A stretch of DNA of 10,000 nucleotides from Magnetospirillum sp. (GTDB lineage: Bacteria > Pseudomonadota > Alphaproteobacteria > Rhodospirillales > Magnetospirillaceae). Below, in pieces: positions 2 through 10,000 of this stretch; the first letter of the stretch is position 1; every line of letters begins with the position of its first letter. The DNA is taken from the NCBI GenBank assembly GCA_020217035.1, contig JAIWOG010000107.1, forward strand, positions 1 to 10,000. The letters run 5' to 3'. Under the pieces are notes generated by a model. That model ran no database searches. It had not been told where the DNA came from and worked only from the letters and a program-made list of their open reading frames with translations. A program made the position numbers and the translations under genes.

Positions 2-781
2 TCGGCCGAGGCGTTCGACTACGCCTATTCGACGCTGACCACCATGGTGGGATCGTCGTGGCTGGACGCCCAGTCGCTGACATCCAACAACCGGACCCAG
101 GCGGTTACCTGGCCTGACAAGCCCGAGCTTTTCAGTGCCGGCAATTACCAAGTCCAGCTCAACCATTACTTCCTGGGCAACGATTACGCCATCGAACTGA
201 ACGACGGCAGCGGCGTCACCCGCCCCGACCCGTCCACCAGCAAGTTGACCGGCGGCTCGGTGACGGGAACCGCTTACGCCGACCTGACCAACGTCACCAT
301 CACCGGCGACCAGATCACTTTCGACGCCGGCGGCACCACCCATACCGGGACCTTGAAGACCGGTGGTGGTGGCGTGCTGAACGCCTGGGCCTACAACAAC
401 TTCACCTCGTCCAATTCCGACCCCGACCAGAACGCCGCCGAAGTCGCCGCCTTGAAGGCGTCGGCCATGGCCGCCATCGACGACGCCATCGAGCGGGTGC
501 GCATGGCGGAAACCCAGTGGGGCATCGCCGAGGCTCAATTGTCCGGCGCCCTCAACTTCCTGGGGCTGCGCCAAGATCAGGCCAAGGAAGAGTTCGAGCT
601 GAAGTCCAACGAGGTGCTGGACGCCAAGAACGCCGAGTTGCGGGCCGCCAAGACCCGCTATGAATTGTCTGTCAACACGCTGAGCCTGACCAGCGGGCAA
701 GCCAGCAACTTCATCCAGCAGATGTTCATGACCTCGCCCTTCGCCGAGCAGAAAAGCCTGTTCGAAATCATCAGCGGCTGA
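2..781 (+). CDS. C-terminal part of a flagellin-like or other surface protein (5' end outside window)
   Basis: The reading frame is open from the left edge (codons from base 2) to a TGA at 779-781, so only the last 259 residues are visible and the Met at base 44 is probably internal. The first ~130 visible residues are rich in Gly, Thr, Ser, Asn and Asp, with a beta-type pattern and no cysteine. From about residue 145 the chain becomes strongly helical and heptad-like: AAIDDAIERVRMAETQWG, then KSNEVLDAKNAELRAAKTRYE, ending in FIQQMF and a short tail. A variable beta-rich middle followed by a helical C-terminal D0/D1-like region that begins 'AAIDxAI..V' resembles flagellins. The sugar-biosynthesis genes directly downstream fit a glycosylated flagellin locus. 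The resemblance is from memory and weak at the very end, so another secreted or appendage protein is possible. The gene is certain; the function is tentative. Confidence 0.55.
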   Translation, partial: SAEAFDYAYSTLTTMVGSSWLDAQSLTSNNRTQAVTWPDKPELFSAGNYQVQLNHYFLGNDYAIELNDGSGVTRPDPSTSKLTGGSVTGTAYADLTNVTITGDQITFDAGGTTHTGTLKTGGGGVLNAWAYNNFTSSNSDPDQNAAEVAALKASAMAAIDDAIERVRMAETQWGIAEAQLSGALNFLGLRQDQAKEEFELKSNEVLDAKNAELRAAKTRYELSVNTLSLTSGQASNFIQQMFMTSPFAEQKSLFEIISG

Positions 782-863: not shown

Positions 864-1895
864 TTGACCATTCTCAATTCCTTTCGCCACGACATCGGCG
901 ATCGCCTGGACGGCAAGTCCGTGCTGGTCACCGGCGGCACCGGTTCGTTCGGCCGCGAATTCATCCGCACCGTGCTGGCGCAATACAAGGTCGGGCGTCT
1001 GATCGTCTTTTCGCGCGACGAGCAAAAGCATTTCGAGATGCAGCGCGAGTTCCCCGAGGACAAGTATCCGGCCATCCGCTATTTCCTGGGTGACGTGCGT
1101 GACCTGGACCGCCTGAACCGCGCCTTCAAGGGGGTGGATGTGGTCATCCACGCCGCCGCGCAGAAACACGTGCCGCTGGCCGAGTATAACCCCACCGAAT
1201 GCCTGCACACCAATGTCTGGGGCGCCGAGAACGTGGTGCGCGCCGCCATCGACAACAACGTGTCGGCGGTGGTCGCTTTGTCCACCGACAAGGCGGTCAA
1301 CCCGGTCAACCTGTACGGCGCCAGCAAGCTGGCGGCCGAGAAGGTGTTCGTCGCCGCCAACAACATCGCCGGCCGCGCCCATACCCGTTTCTCGGTGGTG
1401 CGCTATGGCAACGTCGTCGGCTCGAAGGGGTCGGTGGTGCCGTTCTACCAGCAATTGCTGGCCCAGGGCGCCGACCACCTGCCGATCACCGATCCGCGCA
1501 TGACCCGCTTCTGGATCACCTTGCAGCAGGGCGTCGACTTCGTGCTGTCGTCCTTCGCCATGATGAAGGGCGGCGAGATCTTCATTCCGAAAATCCCTTC
1601 CATGCGTATACCCGACCTGGCCAAGGCCATGGCGCCCCACCTGCCGCACAAGACCATCGGCATCCGCCCCGGCGAGAAGCTGCACGAGGTGATGGTGGCG
1701 GAAGAGGAATCGCGGACCACCCACGAACTGGACGACCGCTATCTGATCTATCCGGCGCTGTCGTTCTGGACCCAATCCGACCTGCCGGCCGGCGCCAAGG
1801 CGGTGCCCGAGGAATTCCGCTATGCCAGCGACAGCAACGACTGGTGGCTCAGCGACGCCGAGTTGCTGAGCATGATCAGCCGCTCGCTGCTTTAG
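864..1895 (+). CDS. pseB: UDP-N-acetylglucosamine 4,6-dehydratase (inverting), PseB-like
   Basis: This is a soluble extended short-chain dehydrogenase/reductase that should convert UDP-GlcNAc to the 4-keto-6-deoxy sugar, the first step towards pseudaminic acid and related sugars in the cytoplasm. Seen in the 343-residue protein: a Rossmann motif TGGTGSFG at residues 23-30; the segment STDKAVNPVNLYGASK at 140-155 with the T141-D142-K143 triad and Y151/K155; then MTRFWITLQQGVDFV and IGIRPGEKLHEVM, both typical of PseB. Retaining homologues (PglF/FlaA1-type) usually carry Met at the Tyr position, so Y151 favours the 5-inverting PseB type. The length is close to PseB (about 333) and there is no N-terminal membrane domain. 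The start is TTG at 864, backed by GAGG six bases upstream. It follows the surface-protein gene by 82 bases and is followed after 10 bases by an oxidoreductase, so it is probably the first gene of a sugar operon. Confidence 0.92.
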   Translation: MTILNSFRHDIGDRLDGKSVLVTGGTGSFGREFIRTVLAQYKVGRLIVFSRDEQKHFEMQREFPEDKYPAIRYFLGDVRDLDRLNRAFKGVDVVIHAAAQKHVPLAEYNPTECLHTNVWGAENVVRAAIDNNVSAVVALSTDKAVNPVNLYGASKLAAEKVFVAANNIAGRAHTRFSVVRYGNVVGSKGSVVPFYQQLLAQGADHLPITDPRMTRFWITLQQGVDFVLSSFAMMKGGEIFIPKIPSMRIPDLAKAMAPHLPHKTIGIRPGEKLHEVMVAEEESRTTHELDDRYLIYPALSFWTQSDLPAGAKAVPEEFRYASDSNDWWLSDAELLSMISRSLL

Positions 1896-1905
1896 GGATC
1901 AGACG

Positions 1906-2859
1906 ATGATCGCCGTGTTGGGCTTGGGCAGCATCGGCCTGCGCCACGCGGGCAACGCCCTGGCCTTGGGCCAGGCGGTCATCGGCTTCGATCCCAGCCC
2001 GGAGCGCCGCGCCCTGTTGGCGGATAAGGGCGGCACCGTCACCGCCGACCGTGGCCAGGCCATCGCCGCCGCCCGCGCCGTGGTGGTGGCGTCGCCGTCC
2101 GAACACCACATGGACGATTTGCGGGCTTGCCTGGCCGCCGGCCGCCACGTTCTGGTGGAAAAGCCGTTGGCCCATCGTGTCGACGGCTTGGCCGTACTGA
2201 TGGCCGAGGCCGAACAGGCCGGGCTGGTGGTGGCGGTGGCGATGATGCTGCGCCTTCATCCCGCCGTGCGCCGCGCGGCTGAAATCCTGTCCTTGGGCCA
2301 GTTGGGAAAGCCTTTGTGGGGCCGTTTCCTGGCGGCGCTTTACTTGCCCGAATGGCGCCCCGGCCAGGACTGGACCCAAGGATACGCCAACGATCCCAAG
2401 ACCGGCGGCGCTCTGTTCGACTATGTCCATGAAATAGACTTGGCCTGCCACCTGCTGGGACCGGCCCACGTGTTGGCTTCGGTGGCCACCCATACCGGCA
2501 GCATCGGCTTGGCCGCCGAGGACATGGCCGATTTGGTGCTGGACCATGGCGGGGCGCGCTCGTCCATCCACGTGGATTACGTCACCCGTCCACGCCATCG
2601 CTATGGCGAGGTCGCCGGCACCTTGGGGGCGCTGCGCCTCGACCTGGACGGCCGCCGCCTGACTTGGCGGGACACCAGCGGCGCCGTGGTCGAGGACGTC
2701 ACCTATCCCGGTTCCTATGCCGACGATTACGTGGCCGAGATGGCCGCCTTCGTCGCCGCCATCGACCGAGCCGAGCCGCCGCCCTGTTCCGGCGCCCAGG
2801 CGCTGGAGGTTCTTGAAACCCTGATTTCCGCCCGCACCCTTGCCGGATTGCCGTCATGA
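1906..2859 (+). CDS. Gfo/Idh/MocA-family NAD(P)-dependent oxidoreductase
   Basis: A 317-residue protein with both halves of the Gfo/Idh/MocA family. The N-terminus has a Rossmann dinucleotide site, GLGSIG at residues 6-11, followed by the family's EKP motif at 85-87, whose Lys usually helps catalysis. The C-terminal half has TGGALFDYVHEID at 166-178, the D...H..D arrangement that normally lines the substrate pocket. Members oxidise or reduce hydroxyl/keto groups on sugars, inositols and nucleotide sugars; the exact substrate cannot be read here. Placed between a 4,6-dehydratase and a cytidylyltransferase-aminotransferase, it most likely acts on an intermediate of the same sugar pathway, for example by making the keto group that is then aminated (inference). 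The ATG at 1906 is preceded by AGGGA at 1894-1898, which overlaps the stop codon of the previous gene. Its stop overlaps the next start as ATGA. Confidence 0.88.
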   Translation: MIAVLGLGSIGLRHAGNALALGQAVIGFDPSPERRALLADKGGTVTADRGQAIAAARAVVVASPSEHHMDDLRACLAAGRHVLVEKPLAHRVDGLAVLMAEAEQAGLVVAVAMMLRLHPAVRRAAEILSLGQLGKPLWGRFLAALYLPEWRPGQDWTQGYANDPKTGGALFDYVHEIDLACHLLGPAHVLASVATHTGSIGLAAEDMADLVLDHGGARSSIHVDYVTRPRHRYGEVAGTLGALRLDLDGRRLTWRDTSGAVVEDVTYPGSYADDYVAEMAAFVAAIDRAEPPPCSGAQALEVLETLISARTLAGLPS

Positions 2860-4901
2860 CCACCATCGCCATCATCCAGGCCCGCCTGTCCTCCACCCGC
2901 CTGCCCGGCAAGGTGCTGCTGCCCCTGGGCGGCATTCCGGCCCTGCACTGGGTGGCCCGCGCCGCCCAGGCCATTCCCGGCGTGGACAAGGTGGTGGTCG
3001 CCACCTCGGACCAACCCGACGACGACGCAATCGCCGCCTGGGCCAAGCAATCCGGCATCGCCTGCCATCGTGGCCCGCTGGACGACGTGCTGGCCCGCTT
3101 CGCCCTGGCCGCCAGGGCCGAGGGCGCGGACGTCATCCTGCGCCTGACCGGCGATTGCCCGTTGCTGGACCCCCAGGTGTGCGGTCAGGTTCTGGCCCTG
3201 CTGAAGCGCCAGGGGCTGGATTACGCCAGCAACGTCAGCCCGCAGACCTGGCCCGATGGCCTGGATTGCGAAGCCTTGACCCGTGCCGCCCTTGACGCCG
3301 CCATGGCCGAGGCCGCCCCCGGCCCCGAACGCGAACACGTCACCCCCTTCATCCGCGAACGCCGCGACCGCTTCAAGGTGGGCGGCGTGCCCTGCCCGCT
3401 GCCCGGCCTGGAAAGTGAACGCTGGACCCTGGACGAAAGCCGCGACCTGGACTTCCTGACCCAGGTGGTAACCAAACTGCCCGACCCGACCCGCCCGCCG
3501 TCATACCTTGAAGTGCTGGCGGTGTTGGATGCCCATCCGGGGCTGCGTGCCGTCAACGCCCAAATCACCCGCAATGAAGGCGCCGCCAAGTCATGGCGTG
3601 AAGCGCCGCTGCCCACCTTCCTGGGTACCGAACGCACCGAAAGCTGGTTGCGACGGGCGGAAAAGGTCATTCCGCTGGCCAGCCAGACTTTTTCCAAAAG
3701 CCGCATCCAGTACCCGGAAGGCTCGCCCTTGTTCCTGACCCACGGCCAGGGCGGAAGGGTGTGGGACGTTGACGGCAACCGCTATGTGGACATGGTCTGC
3801 GGCCTGCTGCCGGTGGTGCTGGGCTATCAGGACCCCGATGTGGATCAGGCCATCCGCGACCAGTTGGGCCGCGGCATATCCTTCAGCCTGCCCACCCCCT
3901 TGGAAACCGAACTGGCGGAACGGCTGACCCGGCTGATTCCCTGCGCCGAAAGCGTGCGTTACGGCAAGAACGGCACCGACGCCACCAGCGCCGCCATCCG
4001 TCTGGCCCGCGCCTTCACCGGCCGCGACCGCGTCGCCACCTGCGGCTATCACGGCTGGCAGGATTGGTATATCGGCGCCACCACCCGCCACAAGGGCATC
4101 CCGCAAGCGGTGCGCGAGTTGACCCACACATTGCCCTATAACGATCTGGAAGCGGTGGACCGGCTGTTTTCCGCCCATCCGGGCGAATTCGCCGCCCTGA
4201 TCATGGAACCGATGAACGCCGTCGATCCCAAGCCCGGCTATTTGCAGGACTTGAAGGAATTGGTGCATTCCCATGGGGCGCTGTTGGTGTTCGACGAAGT
4301 CATCACCGGCTTCCGCTATGCCGTCGGCGGTGCGCAGTCGATGTTCGGGGTGACCCCCGACCTGGCGTCGTTCGGCAAGGCCATGGGCAACGGCATGCCC
4401 ATTTCCGCCATCGTCGGCCGCGCCGACGTGATGCGGGAAATGGAGGACGTGTTCATTTCCGGCACTTTCGGCGGCGAGGCGCTGTCGCTGGCCGCCGCCA
4501 TCGCCACCATCGACAAGATGGAGCGCCAACCGGTGATCGAGAAACTATGGTCGCTGGGCACCCGTCTGGCCGATGGCGTGGCGCAGCTGACCGCGAAGCA
4601 CGGATTGTCCGACATCATCACCCTGGTGGGCCGGGCGCCGTGGAAGATCATCTCGGTGGTGGACCACCCGACAGCCCGCAAGGAAGCCATCAAGACCCTG
4701 TTCGCCCACCACATGCTGCGTTCCGGCGTGCTGTTCCTGGCCAGCCACAACGTCTGCTACGCCCATGATGACGACGACGTGAACGTGGTGCTGACCGCCT
4801 GGGACCGCGCGCTTTCCGCCGTCGCCGCCGAACTGGCCACCGGCCAGTTGGAAGCCCGCCTGCCCTGCCCGGCGGTGGAACCGGTGTTCAAGGTGAGATA
4901 G
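2856..4901 (+). CDS. Fusion of SpsF-type cytidylyltransferase and class III aminotransferase (GSA-aminomutase-like)
   Basis: This 681-residue protein joins two enzymes. Residues 1 to about 230 match SpsF/KdsB/NeuA-like cytidylyltransferases: IIQARLSSTRLPGK at 6-19 (the CTP-binding loop), RLTGDCPLLDP at 96-106, EREHVTPFI at 158-166, then WTLDESRDLDF. A linker at about 236-258 leads to a fold-type I PLP enzyme of class III (about 262-670), most like glutamate-1-semialdehyde aminomutase: DVDGNRYVDM, NGTDATSAAIRLARA (G373-T374-D375 at the phosphate site), CGYHGW at 396-401, LVFDEVITGF with D480 for the pyridine nitrogen, and FGKAMGNGMP with Schiff-base Lys K508. The first domain should make a CMP-sugar (or other NMP-sugar); the second should aminate a keto/aldehyde sugar or an activated intermediate. 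It is probably not HemL, because of the fusion and the sugar-gene context. The ATG overlaps the upstream stop (ATGA), so translation is probably coupled. Confidence 0.9.
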   Translation: MTTIAIIQARLSSTRLPGKVLLPLGGIPALHWVARAAQAIPGVDKVVVATSDQPDDDAIAAWAKQSGIACHRGPLDDVLARFALAARAEGADVILRLTGDCPLLDPQVCGQVLALLKRQGLDYASNVSPQTWPDGLDCEALTRAALDAAMAEAAPGPEREHVTPFIRERRDRFKVGGVPCPLPGLESERWTLDESRDLDFLTQVVTKLPDPTRPPSYLEVLAVLDAHPGLRAVNAQITRNEGAAKSWREAPLPTFLGTERTESWLRRAEKVIPLASQTFSKSRIQYPEGSPLFLTHGQGGRVWDVDGNRYVDMVCGLLPVVLGYQDPDVDQAIRDQLGRGISFSLPTPLETELAERLTRLIPCAESVRYGKNGTDATSAAIRLARAFTGRDRVATCGYHGWQDWYIGATTRHKGIPQAVRELTHTLPYNDLEAVDRLFSAHPGEFAALIMEPMNAVDPKPGYLQDLKELVHSHGALLVFDEVITGFRYAVGGAQSMFGVTPDLASFGKAMGNGMPISAIVGRADVMREMEDVFISGTFGGEALSLAAAIATIDKMERQPVIEKLWSLGTRLADGVAQLTAKHGLSDIITLVGRAPWKIISVVDHPTARKEAIKTLFAHHMLRSGVLFLASHNVCYAHDDDDVNVVLTAWDRALSAVAAELATGQLEARLPCPAVEPVFKVR

Positions 4902-4966: not shown

Positions 4967-5845
4967 TTAGTTCTCGATCCAGCGCTTGTGCAGCCACAGC
5001 CATTGGCCGGGGCGTTCGCGCACCCATTGCCCCAACAAATCGTTGATGGCGGTCATCAGCACCAAGGTGTCGGCGTGGGAATCGCCGGACAGTTGAACCT
5101 CCATGGGCTTCATGATGGTGACGCGGAAATGGGCGCCGCCCAGGCGTTCGACGCGGGCCGGCACCACCGGGCATTTGAAGCGGGCGGCGAAACGTCCCAC
5201 CGCCGGCGCGGTCATGGCGTCGCGGCCCAGGAACGGCACCTTGATGCCGTCATTCATCTTCTGGTCCACCAGCATGCCCAGATGTCCGCCGGCCTTCAGC
5301 AGGGTCATGATCTCGCGCGCCCCTTCCGGGCCCTTGGCGATCTGGCCGCCCGGTGCCGCATGGGCGCGATAGCGACGATAGATCTTTTCCACGAAGGGAT
5401 TGTTGGCCTCGCGGTAGACCAAGGTGATGGGAATGCCTTCCAGCGCCGCCGTGGTGCCGGCCATTTCCCAATTGCCCAGATGGCCGGCGACGAACAGGCC
5501 GGGCTGGCCATCATCGCGCAACAGGTGCAGGTTCTCGCGCCCGATCAACTCGACCCGGTTCTTCATCAGCCAGCCGATATGGGGGAACTCGGCGGCGGTG
5601 CGCCCCAGGTTGTCCCAGACTTCCACGACGATGGCCTCGATCTCGGCCTTGGACTTGTCGGGGAAGGTGCGCCGCAAATTGCGCCGCGCCACGTCCGATA
5701 CCTTCAGCCACGGCCCAACGGAACGCGCCAGCCAACCGCCCAGCCCCGAAGCCCAATCCGCCGGCAAAAACGCGAACAGGCCGATCACCGCGTAAGCGAC
5801 CAAAGCTTCCAGACGATAGCGAAGGTCACGCCCACTCAACGCCAT
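4967..5845 (-). CDS. lpxL: Lipid A late acyltransferase, LpxL/HtrB family
   Basis: A 292-residue member of the LpxL/LpxM (HtrB/MsbB) family, which moves an acyl chain from acyl-ACP onto a primary acyl chain of Kdo-lipid A at the cytoplasmic face of the inner membrane. Seen: an N-terminal hydrophobic segment (about 14-28); NLRRTFPDKS at 56-65, typical of the family; the catalytic H-X4-E motif GHLGNWE with H122 and E127; YREANNP at 144-150; GMLVDQK near 190-196; and the closing RERPGQWLWLHKRW (276-289). The length fits the family (about 290-310). Which acyl chain or position it serves (LpxL or LpxM role) cannot be told, so the symbol marks the family. The ATG at 5845 lies ten bases inside the end of lpxK with only a weak GGA upstream, suggesting translation coupled to lpxK. 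It is the last gene of the - strand operon. Confidence 0.92.
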   Translation of the reverse strand: MALSGRDLRYRLEALVAYAVIGLFAFLPADWASGLGGWLARSVGPWLKVSDVARRNLRRTFPDKSKAEIEAIVVEVWDNLGRTAAEFPHIGWLMKNRVELIGRENLHLLRDDGQPGLFVAGHLGNWEMAGTTAALEGIPITLVYREANNPFVEKIYRRYRAHAAPGGQIAKGPEGAREIMTLLKAGGHLGMLVDQKMNDGIKVPFLGRDAMTAPAVGRFAARFKCPVVPARVERLGGAHFRVTIMKPMEVQLSGDSHADTLVLMTAINDLLGQWVRERPGQWLWLHKRWIEN

Positions 5846-6792
5846 GGCAATTCCATCAGCAATTCATCCAGTCCCGCTTCGTCGTCCCAGGCCAAGGTGA
5901 CAGTCAGCACCCGCACCCGGTCACGCAGTTCGGGCGGCACCCTAACCGCATCCTTGGCCGTGGTCCAGACCTCGAGACCTTGATCCAGGATTTCGGCGAT
6001 CTCGGCCTTGCCATAGGCATGGTGATCCGGAAAGGATTTTTGGCTCGCCACCTGGGCGCCGCATTGGCGCAAGGTGTCGAAGAACTTGGCTGGCCGGCCG
6101 ATGCCGGCGAAGGCCGCCACCTTGGCGCCCTGCAATTGGGCGGCTTCCGGCCCCGGCACCAGCCGGGCCTGCAACACCCGCTTGCCGGCCAGATGACGAC
6201 GCACGCCCACATGGTCGTCCCCCATCAGCACCACCGCCTGGGCGCGGGCCAACCCCTCGGCCACCGTTTCCCGGCACGGCCCGGCGGGGATCACCCGGCC
6301 GTTGCCAAAGCCATAGCCGCCATCCACCACCACCAAGGCCAGATCGTGCCGCAGCGAACCGTTCTGGAAACCGTCATCCATCACCAGAACGCCAGCCCCC
6401 AATTCAGCGGCGGCGATGGCGCCGTCGGGGCGATGCCGCGCCACCCAGGTGGGCCCCTGGGCGGCCAGCAGCAGCGCCTCGTCACCGACCCGGCCAGCAT
6501 TGTGACGGACAGGATCGACCAGACGCGGGCCGGCTTCGGTGCCACCATAGCCGCGGGTCAGGAAATGCGGTTCGCGCCCCATGGCCGACAGCTTGGCCCC
6601 CAGGGCCAAGCAGACCGGGGTCTTTCCGGCGCCGCCGGCGACGATGTTGCCGACACAGACCACCGGCATGGCGGCGTGAAAGCCCTCCCCCCTCAGACGC
6701 TTGTTGCGCCCGCCCCAGGCGTAGAGCCCGGCAAGCGGCGACAACAGCCGGGGCAGCAAGCCGTCCCGGCGCCAGAAATCAGGGGCTTGCAT
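5836..6792 (-). CDS. lpxK: Tetraacyldisaccharide 4'-kinase LpxK
   Basis: LpxK phosphorylates the 4' position of the lipid A disaccharide using ATP, at the inner membrane. The 318-residue protein has the typical LpxK P-loop, GNIVAGGAGKTP, with K57 and T58; then TRGYGG (79-84), VGDE (102-105), the Walker-B-like MDDGFQ (138-143), NGRVIPAGPCRE, FAGIGRP and FPDHHAY, all in family order. The N-terminal segment that usually anchors LpxK is present (about 12-28). I take the ATG at 6792 rather than the TTG one codon upstream, because a GGAGG lies six bases before the ATG but only three before the TTG. The start lies inside the end of waaA (14-base overlap) and the end overlaps the lpxL start by ten bases, so it sits in a tightly coupled lipid A operon. 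Length is normal (about 310-330). Confidence 0.95.
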   Translation of the reverse strand: MQAPDFWRRDGLLPRLLSPLAGLYAWGGRNKRLRGEGFHAAMPVVCVGNIVAGGAGKTPVCLALGAKLSAMGREPHFLTRGYGGTEAGPRLVDPVRHNAGRVGDEALLLAAQGPTWVARHRPDGAIAAAELGAGVLVMDDGFQNGSLRHDLALVVVDGGYGFGNGRVIPAGPCRETVAEGLARAQAVVLMGDDHVGVRRHLAGKRVLQARLVPGPEAAQLQGAKVAAFAGIGRPAKFFDTLRQCGAQVASQKSFPDHHAYGKAEIAEILDQGLEVWTTAKDAVRVPPELRDRVRVLTVTLAWDDEAGLDELLMELPWR

Positions 6793-8032
6793 CAAGCGCC
6801 TCCAGCCACGGCGACAGGGTTTGCATCACCGCATCCAGGGCGCCGGCCTCGGCCTCGCTCCACGCCAGGGCATTGGCGCGACTCTCGGCCAGCAAGCCAG
6901 GATCGGCCAACAACCTTGCGACCTGATGGTGCAGATCCTCGGGCGAGCCGACCTGTTGCGCGGCGCCCGCCGCCAGCATGGACGGCACCATGTCGGGGAA
7001 ATTGCTCATACGCGGACCGAACAGCACCGCCGCCCCCAGCCGCGCCGGCTCGAACGGGTTCTGCCCGCCTTCCGCCAACAGGCTTTTGCCCATGAAGACG
7101 ACGGGACACAGGCGGAAGAACAGCCCCAGTTCGCCCATGGTGTCGGCCACGTAAAGCCCGCCGTCCGGCATGGCGCCCGTTGAGCGCAGACGGCAATCGG
7201 GTAATTCGGCGGCGATTTCCGGGCCGCGATGGGGATGGCGGGGAACGATGACGGTCAGCAAGTCGGGGAAGCGGTCCAGCAAGGCAGCATGCACCCTGGC
7301 GACCAGCGCTTCCTCGCCGGCATGGGTGCTGGCGGCCAGCCACAGCGGACGCCCGGCCACCATCGCCCGCAAACGTTCCAATTCCGCCTGGTCGCAGGGC
7401 AAGGGCGGCACCGCTTGCTTCAAATTGCCGACGCACCGGCAATCGCCGCCGCCCAAATGCCGCAAACGGTCGGCGTCACCCGGCGTCTGGCCCAGGCACA
7501 GGTCGAAGCGGCCCAGCATGGTGGCGATGAAGCCCGGGGCCTTCTTCCAGCCTTCCAGGGAACGCGGCGACACCCGGCCTTGCACCAGGATCAGCGGCAC
7601 CTGGCGTTTCTTGATCTCGGTCAGGATGTTGGGCCAGAAATCCGATTCCGCCCACAGCACCAGATCGGGGCGCCAGTGGTCCAGGAAGCGCCGCACCCAG
7701 GCCGGACGGTCGACGGGCACGAATTGGTGGATGGCGCCCACCGGCAGGCGTTGCGCCATCATTTGGGCCGAGGTGACGGTGCCGCTGGTCAACAGCACCT
7801 TCAGCCCCCGGTCCAGCAAACGTTCGATCAACGGCAACAGCGACAGGCATTCGCCGACGCTGGCGCCATGCAGCCACACCAGGGCACCCTCGGGTCGCGC
7901 CTGAGAGGCGATTCCCATGCGTTCGGGAAAACGGGCCGGGTCTTCCTTGCCCTTGGCCATGCGCCGGTTCAGGTAAACCGAAATAGCCGGCCCCAGGACA
8001 TGCGACACGACGCGGTAAAGGCCGTGGATCAT
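6779..8032 (-). CDS. waaA: 3-deoxy-D-manno-octulosonic acid (Kdo) transferase WaaA
   Basis: WaaA (KdtA) adds one or more Kdo residues from CMP-Kdo to the lipid IV-A precursor at the inner membrane. The 417-residue protein starts with a hydrophobic stretch that would anchor it (about 5-20), then RFPERMG (34-40) and HGASVGE at 55-61, whose last residue, E61, corresponds to the catalytic Glu of the family (GT-B fold, GT30). Further on come AESDFWPN, LVQGRVS and the nucleotide-sugar motif GGQNPFEP at 322-329. Length is normal (about 425). The open frame extends upstream to 8671, but the extra 213 codons only shadow the preceding gene. The ATG at 8032 starts the family-like sequence and overlaps the upstream stop as ATGA, so translation is probably coupled. 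How many Kdo units it adds cannot be read from the sequence. Confidence 0.95.
   Translation of the reverse strand: MIHGLYRVVSHVLGPAISVYLNRRMAKGKEDPARFPERMGIASQARPEGALVWLHGASVGECLSLLPLIERLLDRGLKVLLTSGTVTSAQMMAQRLPVGAIHQFVPVDRPAWVRRFLDHWRPDLVLWAESDFWPNILTEIKKRQVPLILVQGRVSPRSLEGWKKAPGFIATMLGRFDLCLGQTPGDADRLRHLGGGDCRCVGNLKQAVPPLPCDQAELERLRAMVAGRPLWLAASTHAGEEALVARVHAALLDRFPDLLTVIVPRHPHRGPEIAAELPDCRLRSTGAMPDGGLYVADTMGELGLFFRLCPVVFMGKSLLAEGGQNPFEPARLGAAVLFGPRMSNFPDMVPSMLAAGAAQQVGSPEDLHHQVARLLADPGLLAESRANALAWSEAEAGALDAVMQTLSPWLEALDASP
6799..6803 (-). promoter_or_regulatory. Shine-Dalgarno site of lpxK
   Basis: GGAGG on the - strand, six bases before the ATG at 6792, lies within the last codons of waaA. 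It favours the ATG over the neighbouring TTG at 6795 as the lpxK start. Confidence 0.7.
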
Positions 8033-8721
8033 GCGGGCTTTACCGGGTCTTCGCCCACCATCTGGTCGGCTTGGTCGCACAGGTCGTTCATCACCTTTTC
8101 CAGGTGCAGCCGCCAGCCTTCCAAATCCTCGTCGCTGGCGTCGCGGGGAACGCTGATCGGTTCGCCCCAGATGAACACCCCCTTGCCGAAGGGCTTGGGC
8201 ACCAAGAAGCGGTCCCAGGAATTCAGCAGACGGCGCGGCGACGCCGAATAGGTGGCGGGAATGATCGGGCAACCCGACAGCTTGGCCAGGGCGATGATGC
8301 CGTCGGTGGCCTGCATGCGCGGTCCCTTGGGGCCGTCGGGGGTGATGCCGACGCAGCCGCCCGACTTCAGCATCTTCAGCAGCGCCCGCAACGCGCCGGC
8401 CCCGCCCCTGGTGCTGGAGCCGGCGATGGTGCTGATGCCGAAATGGGCCGAGGTGCGGGCGATCAGCAAGCCGTCGCGGTGATGGCTGATCAACATGTGG
8501 ATGGGCATGCCGCGCCGCCAGCACTTCATCATCATGATCAGCCGGCCGTGCCAGAACGCCAGGATGAACGGCTTGCCCTGGTCCCAGAACGGTTCCGGCA
8601 CGTGGGCGTTCACCACTCGCCAGCGTCCCGACCGCCACACCAGCCGAATGTAAAGCGACGCCAACCAGCATAAGAAGCCGCGAAGGACTTCGTTCTTGCC
8701 GAGTTGCTTGGCCAGGCTCAA
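8029..8721 (-). CDS. DUF374 (COG2121) lysophospholipid-acyltransferase-like protein
   Basis: A 230-residue protein of the DUF374 family, distantly related to lysophospholipid acyltransferases and of poorly defined substrate. Seen: a hydrophobic N-terminal segment (about 14-30); AFWHGR at 55-60; SHHRDGLLIAR at 79-89; GSSTRGG at 101-107; ITPDGPKGPR at 126-135; and SWDRFLVPKPFGKG at 168-181. These blocks and their order are characteristic of the family. The classic H-X4-D acyltransferase motif is not present: His58, His80 and His81 have no Asp five residues on, although an HHRDG block is there. The TTG at 8721 is chosen because GGAGGG lies five bases upstream and no ATG is available before the conserved region. 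It sits between msbA and waaA, which points to a role with lipid A or another envelope lipid (inference). Its stop overlaps the waaA start. Confidence 0.85.
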   Translation of the reverse strand: MSLAKQLGKNEVLRGFLCWLASLYIRLVWRSGRWRVVNAHVPEPFWDQGKPFILAFWHGRLIMMMKCWRRGMPIHMLISHHRDGLLIARTSAHFGISTIAGSSTRGGAGALRALLKMLKSGGCVGITPDGPKGPRMQATDGIIALAKLSGCPIIPATYSASPRRLLNSWDRFLVPKPFGKGVFIWGEPISVPRDASDEDLEGWRLHLEKVMNDLCDQADQMVGEDPVKPA

Positions 8722-8726
8722 GACCG

Positions 8727-8732
8727 CCCTCC
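8727..8732 (-). promoter_or_regulatory. Strong Shine-Dalgarno site before a TTG start
   Basis: GGAGGG on the - strand, five bases before the TTG at 8721, lies wholly in the 15-base gap after the msbA stop. It decides the start of the DUF374 gene and shows this gene does not rely on coupling alone. Confidence 0.7.
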
Positions 8733-8736
8733 GCCG

Positions 8737-10000
8737 CTAGAAGCCCCGCCCGGCGGCGGCTTCCTCGTGGAACTGCATGGCGTAAAGCCGGGCATATTGG
8801 CCGCCCAGTTCCAAAAGCGCGTTGTGGTCGCCCGATTCCACCACCCGGCCGCGATCCAGCACATGGATCAGGTCGGCACCCACCACGGTGGACAAGCGGT
8901 GGGCGATGACGATGGTGGTGCGGCCCTTCATCAAGTGTTCCAACGCCACCTGCACCTGACGCTCGGATTCGGTGTCCAGGGCACTGGTGGCTTCGTCCAG
9001 CAGCAAGATGGGGGCGTTCTTCAGCATGGCCCTGGCGATGGCCAGTCGCTGGCGCTGGCCGCCCGACAGGTTCAGGCCGCGTTCGCCCACCATGGTGTCG
9101 TAGCCTTCCGGCAAGGACAGGATGAAGTCGTGAGCGGCGGCGGCCTTGGCGGCGGCCTCGATTTCCTCGTCGGTGGCGCCGAAGCGGCCATAGGCGATGT
9201 TGGCGCGGATGGTGTCGTCGAACAGCACGATTTCCTGGCTGACCAGGGAAATGCGCGACCGCAAGCTGTCCAGGGTGACGTCGCGGATGTCGGTGCCGTC
9301 GATGCTGACATGGCCGTCGGTGACGTCGTAGAAGCGCGGCAACAGGTTCAGCACCGTGCTTTTGCCCGCCCCCGAGGCGCCGACCAGGGCCACCGTCTTG
9401 CCGCCGGGAATGTCCATGGTGACGCCGTCCAGCGCCGCCTTGGCGCCGTCATAGGTGAAGAACACGCCTTCGAACCGCACGTTGCCTTCGCGCAGCACCA
9501 GATCCTGGGCACCGGGGCGGTCCTTGATGACGCTGTCGGTGTCAAGGACGGCGAAGCAACGCGACGCGGCGGCCAGACCTTCCTGCAAGTTGGTGTTCAG
9601 GTTGGCCAGGTTCTTGATCGGCCGGTAGGCCAGCATCAGGGCGGTGATGAAGGACAGGAAGGCGCCCGGCGTGGTCGGGCCTTCGATGACGCGCGAACCG
9701 CCATAGACGATGACCACGGTGATGGCGAAGCCGCCCAGGAACTCCATGATCGGGCTGGACGCCGAACGCACGCGGGCCGCCTTGAAGGTCAGGTCGCGCA
9801 ACGTGCCGACCAGACCGCCGACCTTGCGGTTCTCGTAATCCTCCATGCCATAGGCCTTGACCACGCGGATGCCCTGGATGGCCTGTTCCAGATAGATCGT
9901 CAGTTGCGCCTGTTGTTCCTGGGTGTTGGCGCTGACCTTGCGCATGCGCTTGCCCAACCGCGCGATGGGCAGCACGGCGATGGGAAAGAACAGGAAGCTG
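8737..10000 (-). CDS. msbA: MsbA-type lipid A export ABC transporter, C-terminal part (5' end outside window)
   Basis: The frame is open to the right edge, so the N-terminus and first membrane helices are missing; about 420 C-terminal residues are visible. It is a fused half-transporter. The part near the edge holds the end of the membrane domain: a helix ending in FLFFPIAV, cytoplasmic stretches with IRVVKAYGMEDYE, and a helix around GGFAITVVIVYGGS. The ATP-binding domain follows, with Walker A GASGAGKST (bases 9355-9381), Q-loop VSQEIVLFDDTIRANI, signature LSGGQ (9055-9069), Walker B ILLLDEATSALD and the H-loop IAHRLSTV. The Q-loop sequence and overall pattern match MsbA, which flips core-lipid A across the inner membrane as a homodimer. 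The lipid A genes downstream support that over a general multidrug exporter, although the ABCB family is hard to tell apart by sequence. The stop is TAG at 8737-8739. Confidence 0.88.
   Translation of the reverse strand, partial: SFLFFPIAVLPIARLGKRMRKVSANTQEQQAQLTIYLEQAIQGIRVVKAYGMEDYENRKVGGLVGTLRDLTFKAARVRSASSPIMEFLGGFAITVVIVYGGSRVIEGPTTPGAFLSFITALMLAYRPIKNLANLNTNLQEGLAAASRCFAVLDTDSVIKDRPGAQDLVLREGNVRFEGVFFTYDGAKAALDGVTMDIPGGKTVALVGASGAGKSTVLNLLPRFYDVTDGHVSIDGTDIRDVTLDSLRSRISLVSQEIVLFDDTIRANIAYGRFGATDEEIEAAAKAAAAHDFILSLPEGYDTMVGERGLNLSGGQRQRLAIARAMLKNAPILLLDEATSALDTESERQVQVALEHLMKGRTTIVIAHRLSTVVGADLIHVLDRGRVVESGDHNALLELGGQYARLYAMQFHEEAAAGRGF

Follow-up and report, generated by a model that had tools for sequence, protein, structure and literature searches.

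Several described systems resemble parts of a gene found in a 10,000-nucleotide stretch of Magnetospirillum sp. DNA (contig JAIWOG010000107.1, hereafter the window), in which a SpsF-type cytidylyltransferase and a class III aminotransferase are joined in a single protein. Bacillus subtilis SpsF is reportedly part of the sps legionaminic pathway; the likeness is one of family name, which source annotation has given to some relatives of our protein, and to our knowledge SpsF of Bacillus subtilis is not fused to an aminotransferase. The KdnA/KdnB route to Kdo8N in Shewanella is said to oxidise a hydroxyl of an ulosonic acid and then transaminate it, and it reportedly differs from the present case in its eight-carbon substrate, 3-deoxy-D-manno-octulosonic acid (Kdo), its aminotransferase class and its separate genes. 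FrbH and PntC-type fusions of phosphonate pathways are also said to hold a cytidylyltransferase and a pyridoxal phosphate (PLP) enzyme in one chain, with other PLP families and phosphonate substrates. The pseudaminic acid (Pse) pathway, PseB-C-H-G-I-F, is represented here by PseB in the window and by PseC, a PseG-like gene and PseI in the genome; it differs in that no PseF was found, the cytidylyltransferase is a fused one of SpsF type, and a Gfo/Idh oxidoreductase and the class III aminotransferase are extra. According to the available excerpts of one report (PMC12053666), EpaA of Acinetobacter prophages consists of CTP_transf_3 and Aldo_ket_red, and EpaA and EpaB together convert Pse to 8-epi-Pse, as shown by capsule nuclear magnetic resonance. 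As far as those excerpts describe EpaA/EpaB, the likeness by domain layout is an N-terminal CTP_transf_3 domain fused to a sugar-modifying enzyme, a Pse substrate, a partner enzyme and carriage by phage, whereas the C-terminal part of EpaA is an aldo/keto reductase (AKR) and its reaction a C8 epimerisation.

We propose, with a probability of about 60%, that the two domains of this enzyme serve a pseudaminic-type nonulosonic acid pathway, in which the Gfo/Idh protein and the aminotransferase domain would aminate a hydroxyl and the SpsF domain would make the sugar linked to cytidine monophosphate (CMP-sugar). The more general statement, that a nonulosonate receives an extra amination and CMP activation, is probable, and C8 as the aminated carbon falls a little short of an even bet.

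The fused gene and its two domains

The gene occupies positions 2856..4901 of the forward strand and encodes 681 residues from an ATG start without an internal stop. Two Pfam domains score above their cut-offs: CTP_transf_3 at residues 4-174 (PF02348, 2865..3377, forward strand, 94.1 bits vs 22.6) and Aminotran_3 at residues 291-635 (PF00202, 3726..4760, forward strand, 178.2 bits vs 30.5). The first-pass annotation of this DNA, which had described one protein joining CMP-sugar synthase-type and class III aminotransferase domains, was right on this point. The N-terminal half is assigned to the SpsF type by a QARxxSTRLPGK-type loop and a conserved D100 together with its Pfam match, and the C-terminal half to class III by its PLP lysine and aspartate together with its own. 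The linker, at about residues 236-258 (3561..3629, forward strand), corresponds to the space between the SpsF and glutamate-1-semialdehyde aminomutase (GSAM) tblastn matches in a related locus, L137. The start ATG overlaps the stop codon of a Gfo/Idh/MocA oxidoreductase gene (1906..2859, forward strand; PF01408 and PF22725) in an ATGA at 2856-2859, and the product of that gene is the proposed oxidiser of the hydroxyl that would later be aminated. Further upstream lies PseB, an inverting 4,6-dehydratase of uridine diphosphate (UDP)-N-acetylglucosamine (864..1895, forward strand; TIGR03589, 508.8 bits vs 407.75). The window is the whole contig, so flanks in the same genome (G000) are seen only within 10 kb. 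A repeat search found short imperfect repeats only.

Judged from sequence comparison, both halves are conserved and under purifying selection. In all 64 fused proteins compared (26 cellular and 38 viral), R10, R15, K19, D100, P102, D137, D193, S280, K281, G373, Y398, H399, E451, D480, E481, K508, S535 and T537 are invariant, and E160 and H161 are invariant in the cellular proteins and mostly replaced in the viral ones. K508 (codon 4377..4379, forward strand) is the presumed PLP lysine, which we take from alignment to HemL structures and partly from family knowledge. The earlier statement that both halves keep their key motifs holds for R15, K19, G373, D480 and K508; the rest of the GTD site is looser, since T374 varies (T, S or G) and D375 is replaced by E in 3 of the 26 cellular proteins. 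The ratio of nonsynonymous to synonymous substitution (dN/dS) in six pairwise comparisons was about 0.17-0.32 for the N-terminal half and 0.07-0.19 for the C-terminal half. An AlphaFold2 model built from 18 sequences has a mean predicted local distance difference test score (pLDDT) of 74, mostly above 85 over the CTP_transf_3 domain, and its N-terminal domain matches the solved Leptospira cytidylyltransferase 6oew with a template modelling score of 0.92 by target over 242 columns. By their conserved residues, both halves look active.

The aminotransferase half had been called GSA-aminomutase-like, and this is correct for the fold and the PLP residues. As an identity, however, HemL (glutamate-1-semialdehyde aminomutase) is rejected by the comparisons made here. 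The fusion misses the HemL model TIGR00713 widely (275.7 bits vs 527.3) and also stays below NF004856 (410.6 vs 486) and NF000818 (301.2 vs 398). In the alignment to Pseudomonas aeruginosa HemL, the SPVR segment, which we take to be the substrate-site or specificity segment, is replaced by QTFSKS, with the invariant K281 at the position of its arginine, and a long loop, presumably for gating, is shortened. The fused sequences displayed retain QTFSK, except for L147, L156 and L193 (LLSK) and L232 (QTYSK). HemL, which shifts an amine from one carbon to the next, is the closest solved family; the PLP domain could therefore be imagined as an aminomutase that moves the C7 amine to C8 after C8 oxidation, or that epimerises a centre, with no net gain of an amine. 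Such a product would still need the oxidoreductase and PseC, but the missed cut-offs, the replaced segment and the shortened loop speak against it, and we regard it as very unlikely.

The fusion is not peculiar to this genome. Among the best 120 of 7855 scored protein relatives, in a search that admits only lengths of 0.55-1.75 times that of the query, nearly all are 650-704 residues long with both domains, at 60-94% identity; one exception (P0035) has 570 residues and the aminotransferase only. The order contributed 199 genomes, of which 21 hold an uninterrupted full-model or near-full-model match; for the class the figures are 14 of 385 and for the phylum 5 of 398, with the genome under study counted in each. 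In a 22nd genome of the order (G456) the match is split over two contig ends. The check on distribution that had been suggested earlier, run here by family searches, thus gave both-domain relatives in other genomes of order and class, and an assembly chimera is ruled out by these relatives and by the uninterrupted matches. A scan of a collection of genome contigs with patterns from the aminotransferase part returned only distant class III enzymes, the best with 37-44% identity over part of the query.

In quick GSAM trees (93 rows, with L136 and every second viral row left out), the fused state needs six changes, or seven in another tree, which suggests repeated joining or splitting of the two parts; the root was not used because the outgroup row looks ArgD-like. 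In five loci (L155, L157, L162, L163 and L164), SpsF and GSAM are encoded by two adjacent genes whose order is that of the domains in the fusion. The domain order, on which the first-pass annotation had remarked, therefore says nothing about the order of reactions. The statement that no characterised product was known agrees with our finding of no assigned reaction for such a fusion in the open-licence PubMed Central literature.

Pse genes and gene neighbourhoods

The genome holds PseB, PseC and PseI, all over their equivalog cut-offs. PseC is on contig C101 (TIGR03588), where a PseG-like gene overlaps it (109.6 bits vs 153.55), and PseI is on C29 (480 bits). The Pse genes in window and genome bear out the CMP-sugar (nonulosonate) context proposed for the fusion. 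No PseF was found over the TIGR03584 cut-off (best match 28.2 bits vs 205.7); the fusion itself scores 23.3 bits, and its residues 1-249 give no PseF match at E <= 1e-8. The PF02348 matches in the genome are KdsB (C193), a KdsB-like paralogue (C17, L189), the fusion and one match of 22.6 bits. The paralogue lies under all five KdsB-type cut-offs, one of them by about one bit. The fusion therefore appears to be the sole credible cytidylyltransferase of the genome besides KdsB and its paralogue, and in two other genomes, G402 and G497, it is the sole PF02348 match unclaimed by KdsB models. From this genome context we infer that the N-terminal domain may serve as a CMP-nonulosonate synthetase. 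G402 also carries a second KdsB-like cytidylyltransferase (L185) similar to that on C17, which is over one KdsB-type cut-off.

Pse genes were searched in 32 genomes, 20 with the fusion and 12 of the same genus or family without it. A NeuB-family gene is present in 20 of 20 fusion genomes and PseC over its cut-off in 18 of 20. The first-pass annotation had taken the class III enzyme to stand in place of the usual DegT-type aminotransferase; PseC, however, is in the same genome at 482 bits vs a cut-off of 423.5. Replacement of PseC is thus unsupported for this genome, and an extra amination step is the simplest role for the class III enzyme. A related alternative is that the SpsF domain is a CMP-Pse synthetase while the aminotransferase takes the usual step of PseC or is ornamental. 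It could draw on G442 and G424, which have the fusion without PseC over the cut-off, and on five of the six fusion genomes of the genus, where PseC is not beside the fusion. Yet PseC adjoins the fusion in G485 (L174) and in L122-L126, and the low dN/dS of the aminotransferase half and its invariant K508 and D480 do not fit an ornament. With PseC over its cut-off in the genome under study as well, we consider this alternative the most improbable of those weighed here.

The reading as an additional amination enzyme is also suggested by the neighbouring genes. In the 26 cellular fused loci compared, many of which are from congeners and not independent, the gene directly 5' of the fusion encodes a Gfo/Idh protein in 16 and an AKR in five; PseB was detected in 20. 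In L193, on plasmid pSMR1-1 of Pseudosulfitobacter, two genes separate the AKR from the fusion, and the annotated order is pseB, pseC, aldo/keto reductase, GNAT, hypothetical, class III aminotransferase (the fusion), pseG and pseI. PseC is over its cut-off in five of the 12 genomes without the fusion (G462, G450, G493, G501 and G549), each of which also has a cytidylyltransferase match at a distance of 14 bases from that to PseC. PseB, PseC and SpsF stand in a row in the fusion-less loci L175-L177, with PseG and PseI close by; neither Gfo/Idh nor AKR was detected there. The unfused SpsF from L176 shares 49% identity with a fused one. The order PseB-PseC-Gfo/Idh-fusion is found in the sister genus (L122-L124 and L126) and in G485 of the genus itself; PseB and PseC are likewise present in the sister-genus locus L125, with PseC beside the fusion. 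In these loci, Gfo/Idh and the fusion occupy the place that a cytidylyltransferase holds after PseC in genomes without the fusion. The oxidoreductase and the aminotransferase therefore look like additions flanking the cytidylyltransferase of an ordinary Pse operon.

Four fused loci (L129, L130, L132 and L133) share clusters of reading frames, HisH/HisF-like by look in L132, a hint of acetamidino nonulosonic acids. Directly 5' of pseB, the window begins with a protein of which only the C-terminal part is included (2..781, forward strand; 346-351 residues in relatives). It belongs to no known family and gave no match over the cut-off at E <= 5 in Pfam and no NCBIfam match. Among the loci read, this protein occurs in the genus only (L118-L121 and L174). 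A flagellin identity was an idea from its position only, and with no family match it is not claimed. On the reverse strand, positions 4967-9999 hold a convergent lipid A cluster with an LpxL-like acyltransferase, LpxK, WaaA, DUF374 and an MsbA-like ATP-binding cassette transporter.

Related aminotransferases also occur outside Pse loci. In Bacteroidota, the phylum of an Anaerophaga genome (G591) with such a locus, 58 of 395 genomes contain them (E <= 1e-75). Twenty of these loci were read (L294-L313): SpsF is present in 17, NeuB in 16 and a Gfo/Idh match in one. By look, L297 (8133-13526) and L305 (5907-14227) contain frames like short-chain dehydrogenases (SDR) and HAD phosphatases, and L305 two transketolase-like halves as well; an annotated Methylomagnum locus has the same gene set. 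Among distant relatives, no Pse gene was detected in L166 and L167, and L168 has only a weak cytidylyltransferase match. On a plasmid of the haloarchaeon Halorussus aquaticus (L192, 6874-10124), genes for a Gfo/Idh protein, an SpsF-like protein and a class III aminotransferase follow one another, with NeuB-family and DegT genes close by.

Proposed reaction and its alternatives

In the scheme that we favour, PseB-PseC-(PseH)-PseG-PseI would make Pse, and the Gfo/Idh protein would oxidise one free hydroxyl of it to a ketone, most likely the exocyclic C8, with C4 as the alternative. The C-terminal PLP domain would then transaminate the ketone to give the extra amine, and the product would be 8-amino-Pse, a 5,7,8-triamino-3,5,7,8,9-pentadeoxynonulosonic acid, from which the N-terminal SpsF domain and CTP (cytidine triphosphate) would form the CMP-sugar. 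We infer the substrate, the carbon and whether amination or activation comes first. The fusion and the recurrence of its neighbourhood point to one shared intermediate, or two successive ones, for amination and activation, and channelling, or amination of an already activated sugar, is possible. An O-antigen of Flexibacter maritimus is reported to hold an 8-amino-3,5,7,8,9-pentadeoxynonulosonic acid in the available excerpts of its description (PMC3210612), and this acid and the C8 epimerisation by EpaA make C8 oxidation and transamination the best guess. The main text of a Tenacibaculum genome paper (PMC5561996), as far as it was available, has no mention of pseudaminic, aminotransferase or O-antigen. 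We found no route to an 8-amino nonulosonic acid in the open-licence literature. The fusion lacks the EpaA arrangement of CTP_transf_3 and Aldo_ket_red in one chain, since its C-terminal domain belongs to Aminotran_3; in some related loci, an AKR encoded by its own gene comes before SpsF.

The pair might instead aminate another carbon or an earlier intermediate, such as C4 of the nonulosonate or a position of a UDP-sugar or free hexose, with SpsF activating the product. Gfo/Idh and aminotransferase pairs of the WlbA/WlbC type aminate C3 of UDP-sugars, nothing in the data shows the carbon, and the interchange of Gfo/Idh and AKR fixes no position. The Bacteroidota loci, in none of which PseB or PseC was detected, imply that the pair can also act on a different backbone. 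However, the hydroxyl at C3 of the hexose becomes the ring oxygen of the nonulosonate, so that amination there would block the pyranose. Fusion to a CMP-transferase also points to a late step, and the triamino acid known from Flexibacter is the 8-amino one. We therefore think this alternative unlikely, though better placed than the aminomutase and the ordinary PseC step.

Besides the absent or distant PseC genes noted above, several observations weigh against an amination enzyme of the Pse pathway. The KdsB-like paralogue could activate the sugar instead of the fusion, in a genome that is 94% complete. One of the 20 fusion genomes (G500) has PseF over its cut-off, and a PseF-model match above 50 bits is missing from only six (G000, G571, G497, G402, G424 and G472). 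In most fusion genomes the fusion is therefore not the only candidate, as they hold further cytidylyltransferases for nonulosonates. Four of the 26 cellular loci (L129, L131, L132 and L154) have no oxidoreductase directly upstream, and in L129 and L132 no PseB or PseC was detected. G501, which has no fusion, carries an unfused relative of the aminotransferase at another place. The occurrence of the pair in Bacteroidota without PseB and PseC indicates that it serves more than one pathway, and the product can therefore be named only with the context of a Pse locus. In the AlphaFold2 model, the aminotransferase has low confidence and is poor near the PLP site, possibly because two subunits together build the active site of class III enzymes. 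Finally, relatives of an AKR from one of the loci gave no match in 50,697 phage records at 1e-5, which leaves homology to the AKR part of EpaA unsupported.

Phage-borne copies and wider meaning

Searched with the family alignment, IMG/VR gave 104 relatives, the best 80 of which fall in 79 loci. The gene is fused in 39 of them (38 by a stricter criterion; L224 and 38 others among L198-L254), and 40 are without the fusion. The 39 fused loci contain Gfo/Idh in 37, PseB in 34, a PseC-like gene in 34, GNAT in 30, NeuB in 28 and a PseG match in only three, and no second cytidylyltransferase was seen in the flanks covered. A large terminase subunit related to that of L224 is present in 35 of the 79 loci, all 35 of them fused. 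L224 (IMGVR_UViG_3300024182_000001), the one viral fused contig with full gene annotation, has phage genes for a terminase, an SU10-type portal and a small terminase (PHROGs and Pfam). Its cassette at 6551-15350 comprises GNAT, two methyltransferases, Gfo/Idh, the fusion, a PseB-like dehydratase, a DegT aminotransferase and NeuB. In the tree with seven changes, 18 of the 19 viral fused rows form one clade with a support of 100 in the SH-like approximate likelihood ratio test (SH-aLRT), and the other, L198, a 6.5-kb contig without terminase, groups with the bacterial L128. Of the 50,697 named phage records, none matches the viral fusion over 80% of its length, and no description of such a phage cassette was found in the open-licence literature. 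Two other viral loci, L234 and L264 (on the same contigs as L196 and L197), carry AKR, SpsF and aminotransferase as small unfused genes, together with PseB and, in one of the two, NeuB.

More tentatively, and here we would rather bet against than for it, the SpsF-aminotransferase could be the core of an undescribed mobile route to CMP-8-amino nonulosonic acids for bacterial surface glycans, with a near-complete cassette, close to the terminase and portal genes, in an uncultured phage clade that would make its own triamino sialic-acid-like sugar. On such a route, amination may take place while the sugar is being activated or afterwards.

If the proposed role is true, the fusion and its Gfo/Idh partner would supply a route to the 8-amino nonulosonic acid that has been reported chemically, and part of the 'glutamate-1-semialdehyde aminomutase' annotations in sugar loci would be explained. 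The fusion would join EpaA as a second example of a cytidylyltransferase in one chain with a modifier of the sugar that it activates. The phage cassettes would represent viruses with most of a nonulosonic acid pathway, and a role on the surface of the virion or of the host would become testable.

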